Position numbers and translations under genes: made by a program
Shown here: piece after piece, positions 28,673 through 29,755 of the stretch
Layout of the letters: the number at the start of each line of letters is the position of its first letter
Numbering within the stretch: the stretch's first letter is position 1
Source: Clostridia bacterium
GTDB taxonomy: Bacteria > Bacillota > DAOUPZ01
Direction: 5' to 3'
Length of the DNA: 64,000 nt
Assembly (NCBI GenBank): GCA_030625885.1
Contig: DAOUPZ010000003.1
Span: 1 to 64,000 of the forward strand
Notes under the pieces: generated by a model
What the model saw: the letters and a program-made list of their open reading frames with translations, nothing else
The model's database searches: none
What the model was told of the DNA's origin: nothing

Positions 28673-28715
28673 GAAAAATACTTAAAGGTTTATTGAGTAT
28701 CATAAAATTTATAAT

Positions 28716-28757
28716 AAAAGACACTAACTTAAAAATTTTTAAGTTAGTGTCTTTTAT
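28716..28757 (+). terminator. Intrinsic terminator after the transketolase genes
   Basis: AAAAGACACTAACTTAAAAA pairs perfectly with its complement in 28736-28755. The perfect symmetry would also allow termination on the other strand. Confidence 0.8.
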
Positions 28758-28941
28758 ATTTGTATCTCATTGATTTGAAAAACAAGAAGAATAGATTTAG
28801 AAAATACTTTCAAAAATATAGACAAAATGATACAATATGAGTACGTAAATATGTTATATAATTCATTATTTGTATTTATTTTCTTAATTATTGATAATAT
28901 TGCTACTTGAAAAATATAGAACCCAAAAGGAGGTTAAGATG

Positions 28942-29235
28942 ATGTCAGAGAAGAGAGATTATAGAGCTGAAGTGATTCTTAAAGCGATGAAGGATGAGGA
29001 TTTCAGGCAAAAACTTTTGGACAATCCCAAAGCAGTTATTGAACATGAACTGGGAATCATCATACCCGACCAGGTCAATATCCAAGTGTTAGAAGAAAAA
29101 CTTAAAGCTGCATCAAAACAAGAATTAACAGATGATGAACTGGATAGGGTTGTCGGAGGTGGTGTTTTTTGGGATAAATTTTGGGATTTTTTAGAAGGAG
29201 GCCATGATTGGAGTTCAGAAGGAGCAGGTGTTTAA
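28942..29235 (+). CDS. NHLP-type RiPP precursor peptide, copy 1
   Basis: 97 residues from ATG 28942 behind AAAAGGAGG (another ATG lies 3 bases earlier). The leader (1-73) carries LKAMKDEDFRQKLLDNPKAV, ELGIIIPDQVNIQVLEE and ELTDDELDRVVGGG, the nitrile hydratase alpha-like leader (NHLP/TIGR03793) ending in a double-glycine site. The core after GG is 23-24 residues, aromatic-rich (VFWDKFWDFLEGGHDW) and without Cys or Thr, so it is an unlikely lanthipeptide or thiazole peptide. No modification enzyme, C39 peptidase or exporter is encoded nearby. Sister copy follows 50 bases later. Confidence 0.87.
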   Translation: MSEKRDYRAEVILKAMKDEDFRQKLLDNPKAVIEHELGIIIPDQVNIQVLEEKLKAASKQELTDDELDRVVGGGVFWDKFWDFLEGGHDWSSEGAGV

Positions 29236-29284
29236 TGCTGCATACCTTTTCATTTAATATAAAACCCAAAAGGAGATGAAGATA

Positions 29285-29590
29285 ATGTCACAACAGAGAG
29301 ATTACAGAGCTGAAATTACTCTTAAAGCGATGAAGGATGAGGATTTCAGGCAAAAACTTCTGGATAATCCCAAAGCTGTTATGGAACATGAACTGGGGAT
29401 CGTCATACCGGATAAAATCAACATTCAAGTGTTAGAAGAAAAACATGATAATTTTTACCTTGTTCTGCCGCCCAAAGCTTCTTCAGAGCAAGAATTAACA
29501 GATGATGAATTGGATAGTGTTGCTGGTGGGAATCATAGTTTTTGGTATTACGTTAATCGTTTTATGACTGCTTTGGGAGATGGTCACTAG
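29285..29590 (+). CDS. NHLP-type RiPP precursor peptide, copy 2
   Basis: 101 residues from ATG 29285; an in-frame ATG 9 bases earlier directly abuts the AAAAGGAG site. The first 53 residues are almost identical to copy 1 in protein and DNA. A 10-residue insertion (HDNFYLVLPP region) precedes ELTDDELDSVAGG, and the 19-residue core (NHSFWYYVNRFMTALGDGH) differs completely from copy 1. It too lacks Cys. Both genes share an ACCCAAAAGGAG leader, pointing to tandem duplication with core diversification. Maturation and export must be supplied from elsewhere, if they occur. Confidence 0.87.
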   Translation: MSQQRDYRAEITLKAMKDEDFRQKLLDNPKAVMEHELGIVIPDKINIQVLEEKHDNFYLVLPPKASSEQELTDDELDSVAGGNHSFWYYVNRFMTALGDGH

Positions 29591-29629: not shown

Positions 29630-29716
29630 ATGCAAAAGCATGAAGCGCTTCTTTATGGCGGTTTTAATTCATTTGTGGATCGGTGTATAAATGAAGAGGA
29701 TGAGTCAGTAAAATAA
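29630..29716 (+). CDS. Possible 28-residue peptide or gene remnant
   Basis: Reads MQKHEALLYGGFNSFVDRCI then NEEDESVK and stops 2 bases before a terminator stem. A TTG 12 bases upstream is an alternative start; neither has a strong ribosome site. It could be a small peptide of the NHLP locus or the tail of a deleted gene. The remaining part of this 343-base gap up to ftsE is AT-rich with no other clear signal. Confidence 0.25.
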   Translation: MQKHEALLYGGFNSFVDRCINEEDESVK

Positions 29717-29717
29717 G

Positions 29718-29755
29718 AAAAATAGCCTAGTCCTAGGCTATTTTTCTTATTTTGA
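29718..29755 (+). terminator. Intrinsic terminator of the NHLP locus
   Basis: AAAAATAGCCTAG pairs with CTAGGCTATTTTT around a 2-base centre, followed by CTTATTTT. It marks the 3' end of a transcript that would hold both NHLP genes. Confidence 0.8.

Follow-up and report, generated by a model that had tools for sequence, protein, structure and literature searches.

Two adjacent genes of a Clostridia bacterium encode precursor peptides that are probably cleaved and exported in trans by an NHLM-type exporter on another contig and, on balance, leave without classical modification. The pair is best explained as functional precursors with NHLP (nitrile-hydratase-like) leaders that were duplicated, after which the cores diverged. 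It belongs to a known peptide family and is a fairly ordinary new addition to it. In the mechanism that we propose from sequence comparison, the leader shared by both precursors would be recognised by the single NHLM exporter of the genome, encoded on contig C14. Both precursors would then be cut after Gly-Gly and exported by its HlyD, C39-peptidase ABC1 and ABC2 subunits. The cores would leave the cell, probably as short aromatic peptides lacking lanthionine or azole modification, and could serve as a signal or an antimicrobial.

The genes lie within the window, that is, the whole stretch of 64,000 nucleotides analysed, on contig C15. Their features are as follows:

28714-28757, no strand assigned: terminator-like perfect inverted repeat 3' of the transketolase gene, setting the pair apart on its 5' side
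28928-28933, plus strand: Shine-Dalgarno AGGAGG of gene 1, read from the sequence, 8 nt 5' of the ATG at 28942
28942-29235, plus strand: gene 1, NHLP-leader precursor of 97 aa, intact ORF (TIGR03793, 63.2 bits, cut-off 50.9)
28942-29160, plus strand: gene 1 leader, 73 aa, ending in VVGG and lacking a nine-residue strand present in gene 2
29161-29232, plus strand: predicted gene 1 core, GVFWDKFWDFLEGGHDWSSEGAGV, 24 aa, net charge about -4, beginning after the Gly-Gly site
29271-29275, plus strand: Shine-Dalgarno AGGAG of gene 2, read from the sequence
29285-29590, plus strand: gene 2, NHLP-leader precursor of 101 aa (TIGR03793, 88.9 bits; NHase_alpha PF02979, 34.5 bits)
29285-29530, plus strand: gene 2 leader, 82 aa, ending in VAGG, matching the NHLP structures 8tb1 and 9cjx
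29531-29587, plus strand: predicted gene 2 core, NHSFWYYVNRFMTALGDGH, 19 aa, net charge about 0
29710-29753, no strand assigned: terminator-like inverted repeat with 21-nt arms and a T-rich 3' arm, between the pair and ftsE

Both reading frames are intact, and a strong Shine-Dalgarno sequence precedes each. Gene 1 has an alternative start at the ATG at 28939; an in-frame ATG of gene 2 at 29276 is too near the ribosome site. The pair is probably transcribed as a small unit of its own. A promoter scan gave no excess over shuffled sequences. The open reading frames listed for the window, read by eye, are housekeeping genes and include no RiPP enzyme, peptidase or NHLM exporter, in agreement with the initial annotation, which had reported no maturation enzyme, peptidase or transporter locally. 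Between gene 2 and the second repeat there is also an ORF of 28 codons (29630-29716, plus strand; MQKHEALLYGGFNSFVDRCINEEDESVK); it lacks a clear ribosome site and could have arisen by chance.

The assignment of both proteins to the NHLP type holds, as both pass the TIGR03793 cut-off. Gene 2 also exceeds the cut-off of the nitrile hydratase alpha family (27.2 bits), and gene 1 falls below it with 18.5 bits. Cys is absent from the whole of both precursor proteins, so the metal-binding Cys motif of nitrile hydratase is deleted. The leaders had been described as nearly identical. This is fair at the DNA level, where a 189-nt segment is 87% identical and a 56-nt segment 84%, except that gene 1 carries a 27-nt in-frame deletion that removes the strand HDNFYLVLP(P). 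The C-terminal end ELTDDELD-V-GG is retained in both. The 72 leader codons that can be aligned yield a dN of 0.076 and a dS of 0.58, a ratio of about 0.13 that averages over both copies and is compatible with relaxation in gene 1 alone. By this ratio, the leaders have been under purifying selection since the duplication, and they look maintained rather than decaying. With a strand missing and VVGG in place of VAGG, the gene 1 leader may be less well handled.

The cores that follow Gly-Gly are strongly different from one another. Together with the identity of the leader DNA, this bears out the earlier view that leaders were duplicated and cores diverged, and the Gly-Gly ends, the core lengths of 19 and 24 residues, the richness in aromatic residues and the lack of Cys were all correctly described. 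Calling the cores unrelated was a slight overstatement: FW...F...L..GH can be aligned between them, a similarity that is suggestive at most (shuffle p = 0.046). Released after Gly-Gly and unmodified, the 24- and 19-residue cores would have average masses of about 2728.9 and 2315.5 Da.

The initial annotation treated the pair as orphan and advised a search of the whole genome for an NHLM-type exporter or peptidase. A genome-wide family search located one, and the pair is orphan only locally. The sole peptidase C39 match in the genome is on contig C14, within one operon that encodes HlyD (TIGR03794, 347 bits, cut-off 156.2), ABC1 with its C39 domain (TIGR03796, 1134.6 bits, cut-off 853.3) and ABC2 (TIGR03797, 963.1 bits, cut-off 709.4). 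As these thresholds are equivalog cut-offs and all three subunits exceed them, the NHLM exporter of the genome is complete, and it is unlinked to the pair. When the C39 domain is aligned with the solved PCAT1, the Cys, His and Asp positions that we take to be the catalytic residues are conserved.

The pairing of these precursors with this exporter is in line with previous work. Phylogenetic profiling ties NHLP leaders to the NHLM exporter above any modifying enzyme, leader conservation has been proposed to reflect handling by the transporter, and NHLPs were already noted in species lacking TOMM or lanthionine enzymes (Haft et al. 2010, PMC2887384). Leaders of the Nif11 type and of the NHLP type alike are cut by the C39 domain LahT150, through a recognition motif in their last 13 residues (PMC6363468). 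We infer cleavage and export in trans because NHLPs track the exporter (PMC2887384), a C39 domain is known to cut such leaders (PMC6363468) and both precursors have kept their ELTDDELD-V-GG ends. Among known systems, NHLP (TIGR03793) with NHLM (TIGR03794/03796/03797), as described by Haft et al. 2010 (PMC2887384), shares with the pair the leader resembling nitrile hydratase alpha without its metal site, short and hypervariable cores after a Gly-Gly end, several paralogues per leader and an NHLM exporter in the genome. The present case differs in that the precursors are far from the exporter, adjacency being usual rather than required, and in that the cores are Cys-free in a genome with no LanC-like or YcaO match.

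Similar arrangements occur elsewhere in the phylum. An NHLP leader is found in 15 of the 399 genomes sampled. Five of these, all from family f23, carry NHLP-like proteins without Gly-Gly in frame and have no exporter above the cut-off; their proteins look like a different subfamily. An exporter above the cut-off is present in seven of the ten remaining genomes, and an eighth, G076, has a copy truncated by the end of a contig; G056 and G146, which are fragmented drafts with an NHLP leader, gave no exporter match. In genomes with both, the precursor is usually unlinked to the exporter: the distance is 0.52 Mb (520 kb) in the closed chromosome of G015, and in G134, G147 and G156 the two map to separate contigs. 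In G307 and G151 they lie side by side. Since the two are commonly unlinked in the phylum, the arrangement of the pair is less surprising than first held. G307, closed as a single contig, has an NHLP that adjoins the exporter and bears the Cys-free core TFLSLELPLW, and it encodes no LanC-like or YcaO protein. As a separate observation, a periplasmic-binding-protein-like gene lies directly 5' of the NHLM HlyD gene (L010:17082-18251, minus strand; L072:1531-2814; L074:5068-6225) in G000, G151 and G147 and not in G307 or G015.

Close relatives of the pair itself were not recovered, as searches at genus, family, order and class level returned only its own genome. The sole find in a scan of named genomes was a Bacteroidales metagenome-assembled genome with leaders 46-48% identical; at one of its two loci lie an NHLM-like exporter and a long ORF resembling LanM, both named by reading ORFs without HMMs. 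Plasmid tblastn searches yielded eight records, all below 60% identity, and a scan of IMG/VR gave no viral relative.

We consider it rather unlikely that, as in proteusins, an enzyme from another locus, such as a SPASM or B12 radical SAM protein or another tailoring enzyme, modifies the cores in trans ahead of NHLM export. Proteusins are radical-SAM-modified NHLP products, and radical SAM enzymes that form cyclophanes usually act on aromatic residues, in which the cores are rich. Proteusins share with the pair the leader family and have parallels in G151 and G076, where NHLP precursors with Cys-free aromatic cores lie immediately beside a radical SAM/SPASM protein; the G151 precursor also adjoins a peptide-arginase-like protein. 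Because of these two genomes, modification of Cys-free NHLP cores elsewhere may well occur. The pair differs from proteusins in that no radical SAM or arginase gene is adjacent and in that the lone SPASM enzyme of the genome is of Nif11 type and on another contig.

The enzymes available in the genome, a 39-contig draft that is 98% complete, were surveyed for the LanC-like, YcaO and SPASM families. At E <= 1e-5, the genome has no match to LanC-like (PF05147) or YcaO (PF02624); the former search was positive in other genomes and the latter in both G015 and G134. We thus reject membership of the class II lanthipeptides, given the lack of a PF05147 match and of Cys in the cores, and of the azole RiPPs (TOMM/LAP), given the lack of a PF02624 match. 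SPASM (TIGR04085) has a single match, a radical SAM protein on contig C23, whose existence leaves one enzyme that could act in trans. However, it scores 605.3 bits against the Nif11-peptide maturase model TIGR04064, above the cut-off of 518.7. Its gene (L083:6995-8332, plus strand) adjoins a Nif11-leader precursor gene (L083:8469-8726, minus strand) in convergent or divergent orientation, and the core of that precursor contains one Cys. Being of Nif11 type and beside a Cys-containing Nif11 precursor, the enzyme is a poor candidate for Cys-free NHLP cores. The trans-acting maturation suggested by the initial annotation is therefore supported for cleavage and export, which the C14 exporter could perform, and not for modification.

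A further proposal concerns the role of the products and is compatible with export in trans: the two peptides may act jointly, either in the manner of a two-peptide (class IIb-like) bacteriocin or as a pair of signals, and duplication of the leader would allow them to be exported together. The genes are adjacent in one apparent unit, and each encodes a double-Gly leader and a core that is short, amphipathic and aromatic; the cores share the similarity described above (p of about 0.046). Class IIb bacteriocins likewise consist of two adjacent short peptides. As with peptides exported by PCAT1, LahT and ComA, cleavage at the double-Gly by a C39 ABC exporter is predicted, and the triad is conserved. 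Nevertheless, joint action seems unlikely. The core charges of about -4 and about 0 are unlike those of the usual cationic bacteriocins, and the unit includes no obvious immunity gene. In addition, the leader is of the long NHLP type, whereas that of bacteriocins has about 20 residues, and the exporter differs from PCAT/C39 transporters in being of NHLM type with a second ABC subunit.

It is highly improbable that the two genes are what is left of an earlier NHLP cluster now in decay. A third NHLP leader interrupted by a nonsense codon and the internal leader deletion in gene 1 would fit such a history, but neither frame is broken, each gene has a strong ribosome site, the exporter cognate to them is itself intact, the third leader looks like part of a different pathway, and the leader dN/dS of about 0.13 leads us to reject wholesale decay, which the initial annotation had named as the outcome that would count against its reading.

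That third leader, found on contig C24 (L005:9013-9228, minus strand), answers in part the suggestion that further precursors might exist. A TAG interrupts the leader and a transposase-like fragment comes after it, and we read this copy as a pseudogene. Because this copy is similar to the leaders that adjoin YcaO in G015 and G134, it appears to belong to a different, lost pathway rather than to that of the pair.

The proposed export of the pair by the C14 exporter has implications for genome mining. Apparently orphan NHLP precursors can be matched to an unlinked exporter of the same genome, and these would be overlooked by cluster mining that considers the neighbourhood only. The pair is also a simple example, open to testing, of NHLP peptides in a genome without lanthionine or azole machinery, and it fits a role of the NHLP leader as mainly an export signal.

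Other double-Gly peptides are encoded in the genome. When 489 kb of it, with the window among the stretches used, were scanned for the motif, seven peptides emerged, counting both NHLP precursors and the pseudogene on C24; this sample is non-random, the C14, C23 and C24 stretches having been chosen for the hits there, and the count is not genome-wide. No such peptide occurred in five simulated sequences matched in length and dinucleotide content. A tentative extension, which we think possible though doubtful, is that the one NHLM exporter is a hub for dispersed double-Gly peptides of several leader classes, with the NHLP pair exported unmodified as a signal or two-component peptide. The set served by such a hub would comprise the pair (C15), the Nif11 precursor with its radical SAM enzyme (C23) and at least four short Gly-Gly peptides (C14, C15, C23), of which three lie beside secreted TPR proteins, two of them with an Ig-like domain.

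The short Gly-Gly peptides include one on the window's own contig, C15 (L087:5638-5823, minus strand), which has a 25-residue core and no Pfam match. Three others adjoin TPR-containing proteins: L104:4450-4611 (minus strand) beside L104:3169-4290 (minus strand), L083:3821-4000 beside L083:4254-6941, and L083:12092-12220, spotted by eye among the listed ORFs, beside L083:10978-12060. According to Pfam, these three proteins include two with an Ig-like domain (one below the cut-off) and one with a papain-like peptidase. One such set of peptide and TPR protein is situated a few kb away from the NHLM exporter.
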